Shown here: in pieces, positions 3,666 through 18,832 of the stretch | How the letters are laid out: each line of letters begins with the position of its first letter | Numbering within the stretch: position 1 is the stretch's first letter | Source of the DNA: a virus | Length of the DNA stretch: 20,176 nucleotides | IMG/VR virus record: IMGVR_UViG_3300022214_000023 | Location: 1-20,176 of that record | Strand: one strand, 5' to 3' | Notes under the pieces: generated by a model | The model's database searches: none | What the model saw: only the letters and a program-made list of their open reading frames with translations | Told to the model about the DNA's origin: nothing | Program-made: the position numbers and the translations under genes

Positions 3666-4168
3666 ACGATCCGACCCAAGATCTTGAGTGCATCCTCGTC
3701 GCTGATCGGGCGTTTGGACAGCGGGTCGAGCTCGATTTCTGCGGCGGCCGTCAATAGTATGTGCACTTCGACGATCACGTCCCGCCTGGTCGAGACGTCC
3801 GCATTCGACCCAACGCCGAGCGGAATCTCGTCGAGAGTCAACGCTTCAAGATTCGCCGTGACGGCAGAACCAACCTCAGGGAAACCAATGACCGCTTGTT
3901 GGTGCGCCTCGATGCCGGAGTAAACGGATAGCGCCAATCCCAGCCCGATTACCGCTGGCGCCTCTATGTAGGTCGGCGCCGGCGGCTCCGGGATCGGGAT
4001 CGGTGGCTGGACGACAACTTCGGGCTCGCGCCGATTTGGGATGAACTCTGGTCGGTAGCCGCGCCCGCGGCGGTGCGGGCGCCCGATCGGGGTTTCCTGC
4101 TCGACCGCGGGCCCCTGCTGGTAAGCAGGAAGCGGCTGGAACGCCCCGACTTGGAAACCGCCGATCAT
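3662..4168 (-). CDS. Hypothetical protein with Pro/Arg-rich N-terminus, 168 residues
   Basis: The ATG at 4168 overlaps the methyltransferase stop as ATGA, so translation is probably coupled. Residues 1-75 are low complexity: glutamine- and proline-rich, then arginine-rich (GRPHRRGRGYRPEF) and proline-rich again (VVVQPPIPIPEPPAPTYIEA). Residues 76-168 look folded and beta-rich, with an acidic helical end (ISDEDALKILGRIV). I do not recognise it. A disordered linker followed by a compact domain would suit a small virion or adaptor protein. It is the last gene before the internal promoter, whose -35 box includes its stop codon. Confidence 0.65.
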   Translation of the reverse strand: MIGGFQVGAFQPLPAYQQGPAVEQETPIGRPHRRGRGYRPEFIPNRREPEVVVQPPIPIPEPPAPTYIEAPAVIGLGLALSVYSGIEAHQQAVIGFPEVGSAVTANLEALTLDEIPLGVGSNADVSTRRDVIVEVHILLTAAAEIELDPLSKRPISDEDALKILGRIV

Positions 4169-4746
4169 TTGCCCTTCTTGGCCTCGATCTTGGTGAAGGT
4201 GGCGATCGTGTCCTGCGCCGCCTCCTTGTTGAACTTGAGCGCCTCCTGCTGGTACTCAGGGTTGCGCTGCTGGATTTCAGGGTGCAGGTTGTAGCCCCAG
4301 CCCACGGCGAAGTCGCACTCGTACTTGTCGTTGTGCGGCGCGTTCGCCGCGCGCCACGGCTTGGACAGGTAGTAGAACCAGAACTCGCTGACCGGCGGCC
4401 ATTGGTGCGTGAGATCACCGTACGCGCGCCCGCTCGCCCAGTGCGGCACGATCACCAAGCACTTCCCGTCAGGGATGAGCACGCGGTAGAGCTCGTTCAC
4501 GAAGTGAATGCGCTGCTCGCCGGTCAGGTGCTCGATGAAATGCGAGCAATGCGCCTCCTCCACCGACCCGTTCTTCCACGGCCAGGGCTTGGTCAGATCG
4601 ACGATGTGCTTCTGCCCGAAGTCCCGAGCGTCCACGCCCTCGAATCCCTCACGCGGCGTTTTGCCGCAGCCGAAGTCCAGCTTCAACAGCTTGTGGGTCT
4701 TGACTACCTTCTTCTTCTTCAACGTCCGTCGTTGCTTCCGATTCAT
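4165..4746 (-). CDS. Class I SAM-dependent methyltransferase
   Basis: This 193-residue protein starts at ATG 4746 with AGGAGG 8 bases upstream. After a very basic start (MNRKQRRTLKKKK), motif I reads LDFGCGKT at residues 23-30, the SAM-binding glycine loop. An acidic residue in GVDARD closes the next strand. The segments CSHFIEHLTGEQRIHFVNEL and YRVLIPDGKCLVIVPH match motifs IV-VI of the methyltransferase type 11 group, which often acts on small molecules, sugars or lipids. No (D/N)PPY DNA-methylase motif is visible, so a DNA methyltransferase role is unlikely. It follows a glycosyltransferase-like gene by 20 bases, and the two may modify the same glycan or surface target. The substrate is unknown. 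Confidence 0.85.
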   Translation of the reverse strand: MNRKQRRTLKKKKVVKTHKLLKLDFGCGKTPREGFEGVDARDFGQKHIVDLTKPWPWKNGSVEEAHCSHFIEHLTGEQRIHFVNELYRVLIPDGKCLVIVPHWASGRAYGDLTHQWPPVSEFWFYYLSKPWRAANAPHNDKYECDFAVGWGYNLHPEIQQRNPEYQQEALKFNKEAAQDTIATFTKIEAKKGK

Positions 4747-4766
4747 TGCGTTCTCCTCCTGCGTTG

Positions 4767-5501
4767 TTAATACATCTTGTCGGGCGGGCCGTACTCGCCT
4801 TTCCAGTCGTAGTGCCCGACCCTCACGGAGCAATCGACAGCACAGCGATAGCCGTACTTTCGCGCATCGCTCCAGAAATAGAGATCCTGCGTGGCCACGC
4901 CACCGTGACGCTGCGTCACGAACCATGGTTTGCGCAATCTCCCGTCCTTGAACATCTTCATTCGGAACAGGCTGAACCCCATGCCGGTGCCGCAACATTC
5001 CTGCAGCCCGCCGGTCGGGATCTGAGGCATGTAGTTCTGCGGGATCTTCGGATCACCCCAGATCTGCGCTACGCCCTGCGGTCCTTTGGTGAAGTACAGG
5101 CCGCCGATGCAGGCGAATTCCGGGTGCGCCTCCATTTGCGCGATCAAGTTGATGAGGCCGTCCGGCGGCGGGGCGTTGTCGTGCTCGAGAGTAAGCATGA
5201 ATTCCCAGTTTTTCAGCTCCGGGTGTGCGAGCACTGCCTCTACCGCGCTTGAATATGCGATCCCTACCTCCTCGCCCAACGTGACGATCTTAGCCACGCC
5301 GTTGTTCGGGGCAAACGCGAGATTCCAGTACGACAGCATCACCTTCGCCGGGATCGCCTCGCTCATCGGGACGACGACTACAACACGCTGCCTCTTCCAC
5401 GATGCGCCCTTGATCAGGCGGGATCGTGTCGCGGCGAGATTGGCGGAATGCTCACCGCCGAAGTCCTGCATGATGATTTGCGGTTTATTTTCCTTATCCA
5501 T
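4767..5501 (-). CDS. Glycosyltransferase-like protein, GT-A type
   Basis: This 244-residue protein starts at ATG 5501 with a run of GGAGGAGGAGG upstream. The start lies 8 bases inside the preceding gene. The N-terminal half has a nucleotide-sugar type core: strand RVVVVVPMSEAIPAKV, a NGVAKIVTLGEEVG segment, SSAVEAVLAHPELKNWEFML, then a DxD-like LEHDNAPPPD at about 104-113. The second half contains CIGGLYFTKG, ECCGTGMGFSLFRMKMFK and a late RHGGVATQDLYFWSDARKYG. The G-T-G-F and TQD/W features are common in family 2-like phage glycosyltransferases. It could glycosylate a virion protein, DNA or host surface polymer. Pairing with the methyltransferase suggests one pathway, but the substrate is not shown. 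Confidence 0.78.
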   Translation of the reverse strand: MDKENKPQIIMQDFGGEHSANLAATRSRLIKGASWKRQRVVVVVPMSEAIPAKVMLSYWNLAFAPNNGVAKIVTLGEEVGIAYSSAVEAVLAHPELKNWEFMLTLEHDNAPPPDGLINLIAQMEAHPEFACIGGLYFTKGPQGVAQIWGDPKIPQNYMPQIPTGGLQECCGTGMGFSLFRMKMFKDGRLRKPWFVTQRHGGVATQDLYFWSDARKYGYRCAVDCSVRVGHYDWKGEYGPPDKMY

Positions 5502-10689: not shown

Positions 10690-12879
10690 TCAAAGCTCCT
10701 CGGCCATCATTTCACCGTCCGGGCTGCGCCACATCTTGAAGCGACGCGGCGGCGGGGTAATCGGCATACCGCTGATCACCATGCCGCCATCCCGGTAGCC
10801 CTGCGTCTGCTCGCGCACGCGCGTGCCCTGCGGCGGATTCCCAGCGACGTCCTGATTCTCCGGACCTTCGGGCGTGCCGCCACCGGCGCCACGACCAGGC
10901 TCCTCGGCCGCATTGGGCCCGGTTTTGCCGAGCAGCTGGGCGGGCGGCGGCATCGTCGCCATGGCGAGCTCGAGCTCCATTTCGGTCGGCAAGATCTTCT
11001 CGACCGGGAATTCGGCCGCTCTGAGCGCCGGGCGCAGCATTTCCATGCGCCCGCGCGGGCCGATGATCTGCGCATCCAGCGGGTTGAGGGTCGCCTGCAG
11101 CATTTCCTTCTGCCGCAGGGCGATCTGGTCCTTGATGAGCATCGCCACACTGCCGCGCGCCACCGGGCGGAGGTCGAACTTGATCGCCGGGTCTGGGTGA
11201 TACTCCATGTTGTAGTCGAAGGTGCGGGCGACGCACTCCTCGATCACGTAGAGATCCACGTTCGCCACCACGCGGCGCACGCCCTTGCCCAGGTTGCTCA
11301 TCAGCTGCGACAGGCCGCTCGACGTGCGCGCGGCGCCGCTCGCCTTGCTGTCGCCGGTGGAGTACTTCGGGAACCCGCTCTCGTTGTCCGCCTCCGACGA
11401 GAAGTGCTGGTAGATCATCAGCAATTCCTGCACGTGCATCTGCGGCTGGGAGAAGCGAATCGCGGATTGGTTGTTGCCTGTGAGGTCGGTGGTCGTCTGC
11501 CACAACTTCCACGGGAACATCTTCGTCACCGGCTCGCCATCGGCCAGCCGATCGACGGTGACTTCGACTTGCGGGCCGCTCGCGATCGCCGCGTTGTTCG
11601 AGATTGAACGCGCGGCGGCGTTGCACATCGCCTGGCTATCCTTGATCACGTCGGGCAGGCCCAAGCCCCAGAATGCGCCCGCGATGTTCTCGAACGATGC
11701 CTTGCTGTAGGGCTTCTTGCCGAGCGGGTTGGGATTGACCTGGGCCTTGATCACGAACCGGCCGACCTTCCACGCCTCTATCTTGTACTCCCGATGCGGC
11801 TCGATTTCGGTGTCGGACTCTACCCTGTTCTGGTAGTGCCACTCCAGCAGCCTGTGCCCCGGACACGAGCCCCAGTAGTCCAGCGCCTCGATGGTGCCCT
11901 CGGGGTCGTACTCCTCGTTGCGGCGCAATTCCAGAATCGCGCGCTGGTGGTCGTTCATCTGGCGCGATGTGTAGCCGCGCTCTCCGTAGGCTTCCAACAC
12001 CTGCGTGATTGCGTCATCGGAATAACCGGGGACGCCGAGCAACTCCTGAAGATGCTCTCGCGTGAAATGGTGCCGGTCGATCAGGCTGCCGTACTGGATA
12101 TTGCGCATCGCCGGCGCCGGGAAGATGTCGAAGGGGCTGCGCCGCTCGTAGCAGGGGGCGACGGCATCTTCGACCACCGCATTCCACTGGCCGCCAGGCC
12201 CCGGGCGCCACTTCAGCGTTTTCTTCATGCGCATCACCGGCCCCTTGATGAAGGCGGCGGGGAAGGTGATCAGATCGTAGATGAACTCGTCCAGGGCGGT
12301 TTTCCAACCGCCCTCGGCGAATTGGTCGGCGATCACCAACTCGTGGCGTTCCGCGACCTTGAGCGAGAGGCTCATCATGCGCTTGTAGGCGAGCGTCTTG
12401 ATCGTGAGCAACCGCTCGCTGACCTGGCTGTCGTCCACTTCCCAGCCTGCGGCCATCGCTTCCAGCACGACGGCATTGACGATGGCCTGCTGCACCGCAG
12501 GCGGCAGATCCGGGATCGGCGTTGGCTCCAGCCCCCAAGGCCTCTCGACCTCGCTCATCAGGATCTCGCGTAGCCACGACTCGGCGCCGCGGCACTTCGC
12601 GCTGGTGAGCATCATGAAGATTTCGCTGCCGCCCTGCTGGCGGATCAGCGCAAGATCGGTGGGCTCGTAGACTCCGGTGCGCTGGCGCAGCGCGCGCAGC
12701 ATGGTGTCTTCGATGCTGCGCTTTGCGTGCTGTGCGGCCTGCCAGAAGCGCTCGATGTGGCCGGCGATGCCCTGCAGGAACATGTCCTGCGATTGCTGTT
12801 CTCGCTGCGCGGCGAAGCGAGCTTCCTGATTGGCGTTGATCTGCTGGTTGCTGACGACGCGAAGGCCGATGGCGGGCAT
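10690..12879 (-). CDS. Portal protein (head-tail connector)
   Basis: At 729 residues this matches the size of P22-like portals, the dodecameric ring at one capsid vertex through which DNA is packaged. The ATG at 12879 directly abuts the preceding TAA, with GAGGGT upstream. The pattern is portal-like: helical N-terminal half (QHAKRSIEDTMLRALRQRTG), wing strands with PCYERRSPFDIFPAPAMRN, the KKPYSKASFENIAGAFWGLG segment (FxxxxGxFWGxGLPD), and a stem region followed by DSQAMCNAAARSISNNAAIA and a long C-terminal helix set. The last 100 residues are glycine/proline-rich and probably flexible, and include GYRDGG at 694-699. Gene order terminase-portal supports the call. Confidence 0.9.
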   Translation of the reverse strand: MPAIGLRVVSNQQINANQEARFAAQREQQSQDMFLQGIAGHIERFWQAAQHAKRSIEDTMLRALRQRTGVYEPTDLALIRQQGGSEIFMMLTSAKCRGAESWLREILMSEVERPWGLEPTPIPDLPPAVQQAIVNAVVLEAMAAGWEVDDSQVSERLLTIKTLAYKRMMSLSLKVAERHELVIADQFAEGGWKTALDEFIYDLITFPAAFIKGPVMRMKKTLKWRPGPGGQWNAVVEDAVAPCYERRSPFDIFPAPAMRNIQYGSLIDRHHFTREHLQELLGVPGYSDDAITQVLEAYGERGYTSRQMNDHQRAILELRRNEEYDPEGTIEALDYWGSCPGHRLLEWHYQNRVESDTEIEPHREYKIEAWKVGRFVIKAQVNPNPLGKKPYSKASFENIAGAFWGLGLPDVIKDSQAMCNAAARSISNNAAIASGPQVEVTVDRLADGEPVTKMFPWKLWQTTTDLTGNNQSAIRFSQPQMHVQELLMIYQHFSSEADNESGFPKYSTGDSKASGAARTSSGLSQLMSNLGKGVRRVVANVDLYVIEECVARTFDYNMEYHPDPAIKFDLRPVARGSVAMLIKDQIALRQKEMLQATLNPLDAQIIGPRGRMEMLRPALRAAEFPVEKILPTEMELELAMATMPPPAQLLGKTGPNAAEEPGRGAGGGTPEGPENQDVAGNPPQGTRVREQTQGYRDGGMVISGMPITPPPRRFKMWRSPDGEMMAEEL

Positions 12880-13690: not shown

Positions 13691-15244
13691 TTAGGTCGCG
13701 AAATTGCTGCCGAGCACGGTACGCGCCCGGGTGTTCCCATGACCGACAACCCCAGCCGACATGGCGCCCGTCATGAGGGCGGACGAGCAGTGGGAATGCT
13801 CGTCGTGCCGGGGCTCGGACATGTAGCTTTGCAGGTTCTCGTTCCACTCAAAGCGGAAGTTCTCCAGGTGGGCGATGCCGACGTCGCAGTTTTCCTCGTC
13901 GAAGTAGCACATCGGGATCAGGTTGCGGCCGGCCTCGATCTGGTCGGACACGTCCCACTGCTTGCCCACGATGAAGTTCAGGCCCGCGGCTTTGGCCTGC
14001 ATAACGCGCGATTTCTTCGTGAACAGGTCGCGGACTTCGAGGTCGTGCGGCCCGATGTGGTGCCGGTAGTGCCACTTGCGCTCCGTCTTGAGGTCGGCGA
14101 GCAGCCGGATATGCCACTCCAGCGATTGATTCTCGATCTCGTGGTAGTAGATAAATCGAAACTGCATCCCGAGTTGCTGCACGAACCAAATCGCCATCTT
14201 GTCGCGCAGGCCCAAGTCCCACCAGGTGTCGACCGACAGCCCGGGGTCGAATGGCACCTTGGTGATCCGATTCTCCTCGCGTGCCTTGGCCATCTGCGTG
14301 CCAAAGATGGCGCCGCGAATCACCGCTTCAAACGGCTCCCTGTCCGTGCTGGGGTACTCGCGGAACATCAGATCGCCGTTCCATTCCTTTTTCTTCACGT
14401 ACCACGCGCGCTGACCCAGATCGAGCGTTGTCCCGGTCATGCGCTCGACCTTGGTGAAGTAGGCGGTGTGCTCGCGCGTGAACACGACGTGGCGCGCCTC
14501 ATCCAGCGGCAGCCGGTATTTCTTGTTCAGCCACCACGGATAGAAGTGCAGCTTGAAGTCCATTTTGGTGAGCGGCTTGCCCATGCGCTGCGCGTTCTGG
14601 GTCTTCGTCACGAGCTCGTGGAACTTGCCGCCTTTGCCGTAGCCCGTCGACTCGACGAAGATGTAGTTGCCCGGGTGCACCGTATTGAACGAGCCAGTCT
14701 GAATCTCCTCGGCCTTCTCCGGGTACTTGTGGGAAATGATGCCGTACTCGGACACGTGCAGGTAGGACAGCGTGCCCGCGCGCATCGACGTGCCCACGCT
14801 GATTTCGCTCTTGTTGGCGAACACCAATTCCTGCGCGCTGTCGTTGGTCGCCGGGTTCGCGGCGCGGATCGCCTCGGGCAGTCGATCGTAGGGATACTTG
14901 ATCTTGCGCCGGAAGATCTTGCGCACGTCGTCCAGGGTGTGCGCGATGATGCCGCCCACCTGACCCGGGTGCCAAATGCACTCGTCGAGGATGAACAGGT
15001 CGATGAACGTGGTGAAGCCGTGCTGGCGACCCTTCAAAATCACGTTCAAGTACCACATGTCGTTCCAGAACTTCACCTGCATGTCGTTCGGGACGAACTT
15101 AACTTCCAGATTCAGCTCGTCGAGAATGTAGTACAGGTTCGCCATGCGCCATTTCTTGTCGGCGAATTGGTCGACGACCTCGATGTCGATCGCCGACTGC
15201 GGCGCGACCGGCTCAGATTGCTCGGCGGGCGGGTCGAAGGCCAT
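13691..15244 (-). CDS. Terminase large subunit
   Basis: This 517-residue protein is the DNA-packaging motor ATPase and nuclease. Residues 72-79 (GRQHGFTT) are a Walker A variant of the GRQxGFTT type, in which the usual lysine is absent, as is common in this branch. HVSEY (163-167) fits Walker B with its catalytic glutamate, and VEST (197-200) fits the coupling motif. The nuclease half starts near DTWWDLG (339-345), with its first aspartate at 343. It ends with HDEHSHCSSALMTG (480-493), replacing the usual HDHxxDA-type last acidic site. ATG at 15244 shares its A with the previous stop (TGATG). No clear small terminase subunit is seen next to it; the 85-residue protein directly upstream or the HTH protein at 16564-17082 are candidates. 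Confidence 0.92.
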   Translation of the reverse strand: MAFDPPAEQSEPVAPQSAIDIEVVDQFADKKWRMANLYYILDELNLEVKFVPNDMQVKFWNDMWYLNVILKGRQHGFTTFIDLFILDECIWHPGQVGGIIAHTLDDVRKIFRRKIKYPYDRLPEAIRAANPATNDSAQELVFANKSEISVGTSMRAGTLSYLHVSEYGIISHKYPEKAEEIQTGSFNTVHPGNYIFVESTGYGKGGKFHELVTKTQNAQRMGKPLTKMDFKLHFYPWWLNKKYRLPLDEARHVVFTREHTAYFTKVERMTGTTLDLGQRAWYVKKKEWNGDLMFREYPSTDREPFEAVIRGAIFGTQMAKAREENRITKVPFDPGLSVDTWWDLGLRDKMAIWFVQQLGMQFRFIYYHEIENQSLEWHIRLLADLKTERKWHYRHHIGPHDLEVRDLFTKKSRVMQAKAAGLNFIVGKQWDVSDQIEAGRNLIPMCYFDEENCDVGIAHLENFRFEWNENLQSYMSEPRHDEHSHCSSALMTGAMSAGVVGHGNTRARTVLGSNFAT

Positions 15245-16563: not shown

Positions 16564-17082
16564 CTATTCGAACCCTTCGAGTTTCACGTCGCGATGCTCG
16601 CGCGCGCGCTGGCTTGGCTTGGTGAGCTCGGGCAGCTTTGGCCAGAAATGTTTCGGATCCAGCCCCGACTTGAGAATGTGCGCCGCCATCGCGTCCGCCC
16701 AGGCTTTATAGCGCAACAGTTGAATCGGCCATTTGTGCATCGGGAATCCGTACCACTGATAGAAGGCCCCTTGGCTGATGCCCGAGAATTCGAGGAATTG
16801 CGCGATGGTCATGTTGTTGACTTTGATCAGGCCGTATAGCTCGCTCATGGGGGCGAACTCGTGGCGGCGCTTTTGCTGCGCCGGCCCCATGTTTTTTTTC
16901 GTCATCCTTGGATACCTCAATTTGGCTCGTTTGCGATGGTAGGCCAAGTGCCGCGCGCGCTTTCGCGTCTGCAGGACCGAGAGGAAACGCTCGAGGCTCA
17001 CGCCCACGTGGTCAGCGGTGCGCTGCGCGATCGCGCGGCGCTGCGGATGGGTAAACGGTCGCTTGGCGGCGCAGAAGTTCAT
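16564..17082 (-). CDS. DNA-binding protein: DnaA domain IV-like segment plus HTH
   Basis: This 172-residue protein starts at ATG 17082, sharing its A with the radical SAM gene's stop (TGATG). Residues 13-66 (ADHVGVSLERFLSVLQTRKR, then ARHLAYHRKRAKLRYPRMTK) resemble the DnaA C-terminal DNA-binding domain, where GVSxEDLLSxxRxRxxxxARHLAxYL is usual. The later GRDHTTV signature is missing. Residues 82-125 (YGLIKVNNMTIAQFLEFSGI, then SQGAFYQWYGFP) look like a Cro-type helix-turn-helix. It may bind phage DNA for replication, transcription or packaging. An A8 run at 16892-16899 lies between the two parts, and ATG at residue 60 has GAGG about 9 bases upstream, so a shorter HTH-only form is possible. 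Confidence 0.66.
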   Translation of the reverse strand: MNFCAAKRPFTHPQRRAIAQRTADHVGVSLERFLSVLQTRKRARHLAYHRKRAKLRYPRMTKKNMGPAQQKRRHEFAPMSELYGLIKVNNMTIAQFLEFSGISQGAFYQWYGFPMHKWPIQLLRYKAWADAMAAHILKSGLDPKHFWPKLPELTKPSQRAREHRDVKLEGFE

Positions 17083-17996
17083 CAAACGAATAACCCTTGC
17101 TGTTCGTCATAGATTTCAGCCGGCCTGTTGCCGCGATAGTAGCGGTCGTAGTCTTCGAATGGCCCGCGTTTCCAGATGAATCCATTCGCCCAGCGCGCCA
17201 CGTCCTTGAGTTTTTGGACCGTCCAATCGTAGCGCGCGACCGGTTCGCGTTCGAGCGCGTTGAGTTTTAGATACGGCTGCACGTGGGGCTCGCAGCCAGC
17301 GTCGAGCACTTCTTGAATGCGCGCCATGCACTCGGCATAAGGTTCATTTCCAACCAGCACGTAGACCCGCTTCCGTTTCTGTGGCTCCTCGGCCAGCATC
17401 TTCATCACCTGGCGCACTTGCGGCCCTTCCTTCGTTTCGTCGAAGGCGAAGCGCCACGGGCCACCGCCAGAATTGAGCAGTGGTCGCCAGCGCCGATAGA
17501 CCTCCTCGGTGAACGTGATCGGCTCGAATCCAGAGTTGGCGTCGATGAGCTTCACACCCTCGGCCTGGTAGCGCCGAATAATATGCTCCTGATATTCCGC
17601 AGGAAGGGCGCTCAGGTTGTTGTCGCAGAGAATCGGCCGCACCGGGAAATCAGGAATCAGCGTGAACTCGCGCCCTTCCATCGCGGGCACGATACAGAAC
17701 CAGCACCCAACCGGGCAACCCCGCGAGGCGAAGGTGGCGAGAGGGTTGTGCTTGAAGATTGCGTCCGGGTAGTCCTGCCTGATTTCTGCCACGTCCGCGA
17801 GAATGTGCTGCATCTTGATGAGGAACAACGCGGGGCCACCAGCGACCACCCTTTTCCCGCAAGCGCGCGCGAATAAGGCGCGGCTGTACGCCTCGTCGAG
17901 CTTGTAGGTGAAAACGATCGACAGATACTTCACGTCGCCGTCGTCCCATTCCGCCAGCCCACCAATCCATTTACCGACCTCTTGTCTTTTACTCAC
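17082..17996 (-). CDS. Radical SAM enzyme, function unknown
   Basis: This 304-residue protein starts with GTG 17996, overlapping the previous TGA (GTGA). In-frame sequence further upstream lies inside the 93-residue gene and is arginine-rich, so it is not used. Cysteines 94, 98 and 101 in RGCPVGCWFC form the CxxxCxxC motif that binds the 4Fe-4S cluster. The N-terminal part (YLSIVFTYKLDEAYSRALFA and a VVAGGPA at 50-56) resembles the Rossmann-like/B12-binding-type region that precedes the barrel in many radical SAM enzymes, with GGP as its usual loop. The barrel continues with LCDNNLSALPAEYQEHIIRR and IDANSGFEP. The C-terminus has no extra cysteine cluster. Such enzymes modify tRNA, DNA bases, peptides or lipids; the substrate cannot be read here. 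Confidence 0.85.
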   Translation of the reverse strand: MSKRQEVGKWIGGLAEWDDGDVKYLSIVFTYKLDEAYSRALFARACGKRVVAGGPALFLIKMQHILADVAEIRQDYPDAIFKHNPLATFASRGCPVGCWFCIVPAMEGREFTLIPDFPVRPILCDNNLSALPAEYQEHIIRRYQAEGVKLIDANSGFEPITFTEEVYRRWRPLLNSGGGPWRFAFDETKEGPQVRQVMKMLAEEPQKRKRVYVLVGNEPYAECMARIQEVLDAGCEPHVQPYLKLNALEREPVARYDWTVQKLKDVARWANGFIWKRGPFEDYDRYYRGNRPAEIYDEQQGLFV

Positions 17997-18274
17997 CGCA
18001 GGATCCTGGTGGCGGCATGATCGGCGGCACGCCGCCCAATTTCCTCGGTGAGCTCTTCCAGGCAGGCTTTGCCCAAGTCCTTCATGATCCGCTCCACCGG
18101 CGCGTCGCCGCGCTTCGTGCGCACGCCGGCGAGGTAGTGTAAGCGGTCGCTCACTTTCAGGGATTTGACGTACCGACACTCACACTCGTGCCTATATTGC
18201 TCGGACCCGGTGTCGAACACGGGCGGCTTGGGCTCTGGTGGCGCGGCGTCGCGCGGCGGCGGATCGAACGGCAT
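17993..18274 (-). CDS. Hypothetical protein, 93 residues
   Basis: ATG at 18274 has GAGG about 6 bases upstream, overlapping the stop of the upstream gene. The N-terminal 20 residues are proline-rich and disordered. Then comes EQYRHECECRYVKSLKVSDR and helical LHYLAGVRTKRGDAPVERIM. It faintly recalls a family of short phage proteins with HECxxRxxL...RxxYLxxVxxxRG, seen near replication genes. A proposed link is weak. Two cysteines (HECEC) are close but not in a CxxC pair. It is coupled to the radical SAM gene by GTGA; a joint role is not shown. Confidence 0.62.
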   Translation of the reverse strand: MPFDPPPRDAAPPEPKPPVFDTGSEQYRHECECRYVKSLKVSDRLHYLAGVRTKRGDAPVERIMKDLGKACLEELTEEIGRRAADHAATRILR

Positions 18275-18277
18275 CGG

Positions 18278-18832
18278 CTACCTCGTTTCACATGGAACGG
18301 AATCGTTGACGAGCATCAAATCCGCCAACACATCGACCGGAATCCCGGTCATGAGCCGGGCGTACTCGTGGGCTGCGAACTCGCGGCTTTCCTCGCCAGA
18401 GCTCCAGGCCTCGTCGTGGATCCCAAGAAAGTACCGTCGCGTGTTTGCGGCGACTGTCGCGACCACGCTGGTGTGCCCCATGCGGTGGTGGCCGAGCTCG
18501 TGCCCGACCACGAAGAGCAGCTGGATCAGCGAGCCGGTTTTCAGGAAGATCCGGTCGACCACGATCACGTTGATGAACGGCGTCAGCTGCATGGCGTAGC
18601 CAAGGATTCGACGCCCTTGGTGGTTGCGCTTGGCATCATCGAGCATCAGCAACACCCGAGGCACCCGCGAGCGCGTGATCAGGTCGCGCACCGCGTAGGG
18701 CATGGGGTCGAACAACTCGGCGCGGCGCAGCGACCACATCGGCCCGAAGAACATCAGCGTCAGGACCATCGTCAGCCATGGCACAAGGAGCGCCACGAGC
18801 AGCGCATACAGGAAGAATTCGATGTAGATCAT
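18278..18832 (-). CDS. Membrane HExxH metallopeptidase-like protein
   Basis: ATG at 18832 overlaps the preceding TGA as ATGA. The 184-residue product begins with a long hydrophobic region (IEFFLYALLVALLVPWLTMV, continuing to about residue 30), which should anchor it in the inner membrane. HELGH at 111-115 is an HExxH zinc site. A later EESREFAAHEYA (147-158) can give the third ligand, as in M48-type peptidases, and HHRMGH follows the site. The length is short compared with HtpX-like M48 proteins. It probably faces the cytoplasm or periplasm as an active or remnant protease. A phage use might be host membrane protein turnover, which is speculative. It lies among replication-like genes, away from the structural block. 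Confidence 0.76.
   Translation of the reverse strand: MIYIEFFLYALLVALLVPWLTMVLTLMFFGPMWSLRRAELFDPMPYAVRDLITRSRVPRVLLMLDDAKRNHQGRRILGYAMQLTPFINVIVVDRIFLKTGSLIQLLFVVGHELGHHRMGHTSVVATVAANTRRYFLGIHDEAWSSGEESREFAAHEYARLMTGIPVDVLADLMLVNDSVPCETR

Follow-up and report, generated by a model that had tools for sequence, protein, structure and literature searches.

A Mobile Radical SAM Gene of Phages with Archaeal Relatives in Defence Loci: A Possible DNA-Modifying Enzyme

A virus record of 20,176 bases, analysed over its whole length and called the window below, encodes a predicted radical SAM enzyme whose relatives occur in at least 451 viral contigs and, as a putative sister branch, in archaeal chromosomes. 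We propose that the phage protein may be a stand-alone DNA-modifying enzyme whose action marks phage DNA or shields it, a reading to which we give nearly even credence. DNA modification is favoured because the archaeal sister branch has an obligate DndB-family partner and lies beside modification-type defence modules.

Gene Context and Predicted Fold

The window comes from a tailed phage, with terminase, portal, and capsid genes recognisable by Pfam and PHROGs; no tRNA genes were found in it. An earlier sequence-only reading had described a reverse-strand open reading frame of 304 codons with a CPVGCWFC motif and a GGP tripeptide, all of which are present (Table 1). Because the frame overlaps each neighbour by a few bases, joint translation of the three genes is probable. 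These overlaps had been described correctly, whereas the label "DnaA-like/HTH" given to the downstream neighbour finds no support in Pfam or PHROGs, and membership in an early-type gene group was not established, the gene lying in a block of small genes, with the large terminase gene about 1.8 kb downstream. Two genes upstream, in a block of phage genes, is a gene for an M48-type metallopeptidase whose N-terminus is of membrane type (18278-18832; PF01435, E 8e-6). Elsewhere in the window, in the structural region (4165-5501), genes for a SAM-dependent methyltransferase (phrog_6636) and a glycosyltransferase (phrog_12406) overlap one another.

Table 1. Coordinates of the radical SAM gene, its sequence features, and its surroundings in the window
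Feature	Position	Strand	Evidence and remarks
Radical SAM enzyme, PHROG 9298 family, 304 aa	17082..17996	-	GTG start at 17996; phrog_9298 E 4.7e-16; pLDDT 93.2, pTM 0.87; AprD4 Z 16.3
CxxxCxxC [4Fe-4S] cluster motif CPVGCWFC, residues 94-101	17694..17717	-	Three cysteines invariant in 86 relatives
Truncated cobalamin-type half-domain, residues 14-60, GG(P) at 53-55	17817..17957	-	Model and fold matches; no Pfam B12-binding match
DNN signature, residues 125-127	17616..17624	-	Common to archaeal defence-branch relatives; absent from 5 outgroup B12-type radical SAM proteins
DxNxG signature, residues 152-156	17529..17543	-	Alignment of relatives; comparison with archaeal branch
93-aa DUF7696 protein, directly upstream, 4-base overlap	17993..18274	-	PF24751 E 1.9e-11; adjacency to enzyme not kept in relatives
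173-aa protein, directly downstream, 4-base overlap	16564..17085	-	No family in Pfam or PHROGs; adjacency to enzyme not kept in relatives
Large terminase subunit (context: tailed phage)	13691..15244	-	phrog_2 E 4.6e-17
Portal / head-tail adaptor protein (context)	10690..12879	-	phrog_332 E 1.4e-38

Membership of the protein in the radical SAM superfamily is supported by its motif and its predicted barrel. The match to PHROG 9298 ("radical SAM domain protein") is nearly full length, residues 10-283 aligning with positions 34-291 of the profile; the Pfam Radical_SAM domain (PF04055) stayed below its cut-off, at 16.6 against 29.5 bits. A confident AlphaFold2 model, built with 86 relatives as input, contains a radical SAM partial TIM barrel whose first strand is followed by the loop that bears the motif, as judged from the model alignments. 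Motif, profile, model, and fold matches all agree with the earlier assignment as a radical SAM enzyme; the lack of a SAM barrel or cluster site, which the sequence-only reading had named as grounds for giving it up, is not what was found, both being present in the predicted structure and the sequence.

Among solved structures the model is most similar to AprD4 (258 residues, 3.3 A), followed by MgmA (Z 15.1), a glutamine methylase of a protein; values for TsrM, MiaB (249 residues, 3.5 A), and RimO are Z 14.2, 13.8, and 13.6. The cobalamin-type class as a whole (AprD4, MgmA, TsrM, CysS, and TokK) spans Z 11.6-16.3 and solved radical SAM enzymes overall Z 8-16, compared with Z 6-7 for unrelated barrels. 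Foldseek alone gave E values of about 0.01 at best and a mixture of TIM barrels; VIA alignment resolved the fold. The best viral structure match was a COG1032 Fe-S oxidoreductase (E 6e-4) with no function attached. Direct sequence comparison of the window protein with solved structures gave no credible match, and PADLOC gave none for it either. Matches to PPR designs in the profile search were rejected as repeat artefacts.

The predicted architecture is that of a compact B12-type radical SAM enzyme. The overall fold is that of the cobalamin-type enzymes (AprD4, MgmA, TsrM, CysS, TokK, and OxsB), but the protein is only 304 residues long, its N-terminal domain is truncated, and DNN and DxNxG stand in place of the residues usual in B12-type radical SAM enzymes. 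It begins in the middle of the N-terminal domain and keeps the strand end that carries GGP. The Pfam B12-binding domain (PF02310) is matched by 19 of 89 relatives but not by the window protein, which probably does not bind cobalamin. With MiaB and RimO it has in common the fold and a CxxxCxxCxVPxxxG stretch, whereas their second-cluster cysteines and TRAM domain are missing. Since no auxiliary-cluster cysteine beyond positions 94, 98, and 101 is conserved in the alignment of 86 relatives, and no Pfam TRAM match was found in any of the 89 family members, the protein is not a MiaB-type methylthiotransferase. The PHROG 9298 members (LoVEphage, vir215, and Phocaeicola and Bacteroides phages) resemble it in profile, signature residues, and carriage by phages; the window clade differs from them in its half N-terminal domain, its W/F-rich core motifs, and a sequence identity of only about 25%, and the PHROG itself has no assigned function.

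Twelve positions are invariant in the 86 non-redundant relatives (F29, G53, G54, G93, C94, C98, C101, D125, N127, D152, G156, and D186), and R92, V103, P104, E107, G108, N126, N154, R182, Y212, and R226 are nearly so. The gene is under strong purifying selection, with dN/dS of 0.03-0.13 between close relatives, where dS is unsaturated. The frame thus goes well beyond what chance would produce. One relative (L050:334-1332), otherwise conserved in sequence, has a widened cluster motif, CPGMGTEANPKPCTFC (C-x11-C-x2-C).

Single-Gene Mobility among Phages

In addition to the viral contigs, relatives are found in prophages, among them those of Rhizobium (for example Rhizobium sp. BK313, locus L089), Mesorhizobium, Roseibium, Chelatococcus, and Methylobacterium, and the LoVEphage-type ones of Bacteroides and Phocaeicola. 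The gene travels singly between unrelated phages. Of the 284 core-family pairs that are 70-90% identical, 244 have no further open reading frame in common within the flanking sequence available (up to 8-10 kb per side). None of the other window genes is shared with the closest relatives, whose enzymes reach 80% identity, and the only such gene with a clear relation elsewhere is the terminase, shared weakly with one more distant locus. Neighbour clustering found no operon partner in phages. The absence of shared neighbours means that no dedicated phage protein partner is needed, and with a gene this mobile the neighbours in the window tell little about its function.

The sequence-only reading had argued from the neighbours to a role in DNA or RNA modification. 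That argument fails, both because the neighbours are not shared with relatives and because methyltransferases near the gene are close to background. As controls we used 40 phages that have Bet but lack the radical SAM gene. C5 methyltransferase neighbours were found in 10 of 38 phages with the gene and 9 of 40 controls; for N6/N4 methyltransferases the counts were 15 of 38 and 7 of 40, a difference (p 0.044 before multiple-test correction) that is not robust. DUF5131 and PAPS-reductase genes were about equally common in the two sets. The phage neighbourhood by itself thus gives DNA modification no support; DNA modification is nevertheless favoured, by way of the archaeal branch.

A gene fusion provides a further hint toward DNA, from a single gut-phage lineage. 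In a goat-colon metagenome-assembled genome (L141:57-3554) and in a separate IMG/VR assembly (L167:5926-9498), one open reading frame of 1165-1190 residues joins the radical SAM enzyme to a DNA polymerase and Erf, the two radical SAM stretches being 99% identical; in another relative (L170) the two are separate, the radical SAM gene overlapping the beginning of a large polymerase-type frame. The chromosome of Lentisphaerae bacterium WC36 has a relative at three places (L117, L118, and L119), all three copies matching equally well, which suggests repeated prophages or mobile elements.

Archaeal Relatives and Their Defence Partners

Sixteen chromosomal archaeal relatives carry the signature residues of the phage enzyme, which are missing from five further B12-type radical SAM proteins encoded in those genomes. 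Alignment of the phage profile with the archaeal one spans 260 columns (hhalign, E 4.6e-22), compared with 29 columns for the phage profile and the outgroup set. In a tree the two branches form one clade against the outgroup (SH-aLRT 99); given the long branches and an outgroup of just five sequences, this speaks for their monophyly but falls short of proof. Identity between the branches is 22-27%, and half of the N-terminal domain has been lost in the phage branch.

In a survey of 199 archaeal genomes of one class, every relative at least 58% identical to the query has a DndB-family partner, a protein of about 470 residues with a zinc-ribbon-like N-terminal stretch and a DndB domain (PF14072; DpdB in PADLOC). 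Conversely, close matches of this partner adjoin a radical SAM relative in all ten of their loci (nine genomes), with gaps of -1 to 17 bases. DndB is therefore an obligate partner of the archaeal branch. In a second archaeal group (L104, L105, L109, L126, L131, L132, and L144), a GHKL ATPase of about 585 residues (HATPase_c_3) is directly upstream of the radical SAM gene in place of DndB. DndC scored above cut-off in only one of 17 genomes with these archaeal loci, on a different contig.

Both kinds of unit are found beside restriction-type modules. The DndB pair adjoins the DISARM core DrmA-DrmB-DrmC in five loci (L106, L125, L285, L290, and L291) and PbeA-PbeC with a protein of about 139 residues in three (L286, L288, and L289); the GHKL unit adjoins the same Pbe arrangement in L131 and DrmA-DrmB in L105. 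Of these loci, L125 belongs to Methanoculleus sediminis S3Fa and L131 to Methanohalophilus euhalobius. A DISARM core is normally accompanied by a DNA methyltransferase. No DNA methyltransferase or DndC was recognised beside the archaeal Drm and Pbe modules. The five DISARM-core loci show an operon-like cassette (L125, 9620-18382) of radical SAM, zinc-ribbon/DndB, DrmA-DrmB-DrmC, and a 1109-residue protein that has no Pfam or PADLOC match; by analogy, this looks like a DISARM-type system with the radical SAM unit in the methyltransferase's place.

Pbe has been described together with the phosphorothioate enzymes DndCDEA, and its modules reportedly require a DNA mark; the same study gives 165 of 553 PbeAC loci as having no known modification gene in their vicinity (PMC6459918). 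Compared with DISARM (DrmABC and a methyltransferase) and with Dnd-Pbe (DndCDEA-PbeABCD; PMC6459918), the archaeal relatives occupy the place expected for the modification enzyme beside DrmABC or PbeA/PbeC, but a radical SAM protein and DndB replace the methyltransferase or DndCDEA. The radical SAM unit, with DndB or GHKL, is the element common to the Drm and Pbe settings, which makes it a candidate modification enzyme; in L286, L288, L289, and L131 it is, on the same analogy, a candidate modification partner of "solitary" Pbe modules, and it could fill part of the 165-locus gap. The association could also be partly that of a bystander, because defence genes cluster in islands, and the presence of operon proteins with no family, such as the 1109-residue one, also counts against the reading. 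Among the open-access papers searched, none connects the enzyme family with DISARM, Pbe, or DndB.

Searches with the archaeal DndB, Drm, Pbe, and GHKL proteins gave no match in any of the other loci, and no DndB or ParB neighbours were found in phage loci at the sensitivity of tblastn; the defence link is thus seen only in the archaeal branch. The window protein falls outside the class of archaeal radical SAM-DndB cassettes: it is a homologous enzyme with no adjacent DndB or restriction-type module, and at most works alike. Since the phage branch lacks DndB and half of a domain, its substrate may differ.

Two bacterial cassettes of the Dehalococcoidia (L103:5886-11236 and L115:9902-15197) contain, in different gene orders, the radical SAM gene, two ParB-like genes, a 136-residue nuclease-like protein, and an SNF2 helicase. 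Assignment of the ParB-like partners, in Zixibacteria as well as in Dehalococcoidia, is weaker, having been made by eye and with Pfam. The Dehalococcoidia cassette is possibly a new defence system, and appears similar to the archaeal logic built from other parts.

Proposed Function and Alternatives

As we picture the reaction, a [4Fe-4S] cluster on C94, C98, and C101 would cleave SAM to give a 5'-deoxyadenosyl radical, which would abstract hydrogen from a substrate held over the conserved face of DNN, DxNxG, RxxxD, Y, and R residues. The most likely substrate would be DNA or its nucleotide precursor. Like phage methyltransferases of the orphan type, the phage enzyme would act singly, either giving phage DNA a mark of self or protecting it from restriction. 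A precedent for phage-borne radical SAM enzymes comes from the Thermus phages phiMa and Cumys, for whose rSAM-DUF483 module the authors propose an unknown DNA modification (PMC11437467). That module comprises three genes with a DUF483 partner, unlike the stand-alone window gene, and a tblastn search with the window protein hit no Thermus phage.

The kinship of fold with MiaB, among the best structural matches, and the finding of RimO and MiaB by the family profile over the cluster motif could instead point to RNA: a MiaB-like modification of host tRNA or phage mRNA might aid phage translation, or repair or evade RNA-targeting defence, and in PV4-TP1 a gene annotated as tRNA-splicing ligase lies a few genes downstream. 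We consider this unlikely, given that the family lacks a TRAM domain and conserved auxiliary cysteines, that the window has no tRNA genes, and that the archaeal sister branch adjoins DISARM-core and Pbe modules, not translation genes. It is quite unlikely that the enzyme acts on a free nucleotide, dNTP or other, whether to feed the phage polymerase a modified building block or, in the defence cassettes, to make an antiviral-type nucleotide. The polymerase fused to the gene, or overlapping it downstream, would fit such a role, as would the membership of DndB in the ParB superfamily, for which a nucleotide-degrading activity has been proposed (PMC10853773); the polymerase link, however, is confined to one lineage, the gene is also present in phages with no polymerase nearby, and the reported need of Pbe modules for a DNA mark (PMC6459918) argues for the polymer.

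A protein or peptide as substrate, whether in a host-takeover modification, in SuiB-like RiPP-type chemistry, or in MgmA-type protein methylation, would agree with the rank of MgmA as second-best structural match and with a RiPP epimerase among the weak NCBIfam matches. We judge it very unlikely: there is no conserved small neighbouring frame or precursor, SPASM or auxiliary-cluster cysteines are lacking, and the window protein has no cobalamin domain match.

Returning to DNA modification, we suggest tentatively, as a possibility that we would still sooner doubt than assert, that one radical SAM family installs an undescribed DNA modification on both sides of the conflict. It would serve phages as a mobile one-gene shield and, with DndB/ParB or GHKL partners, would serve archaea and some bacteria as the modification half of DISARM-like or Pbe-type defence, which could include some of the PbeAC loci with no modification genes nearby. 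If this is true, a single signature would locate a new DNA modification both in a set of archaeal defence operons and in phages, where at least 451 contigs are concerned, and would offer a candidate answer for the mark read by solitary Pbe modules and by DISARM cores that lack a methyltransferase. Radical chemistry would then be added to the enzymology by which restriction-type systems label self DNA.
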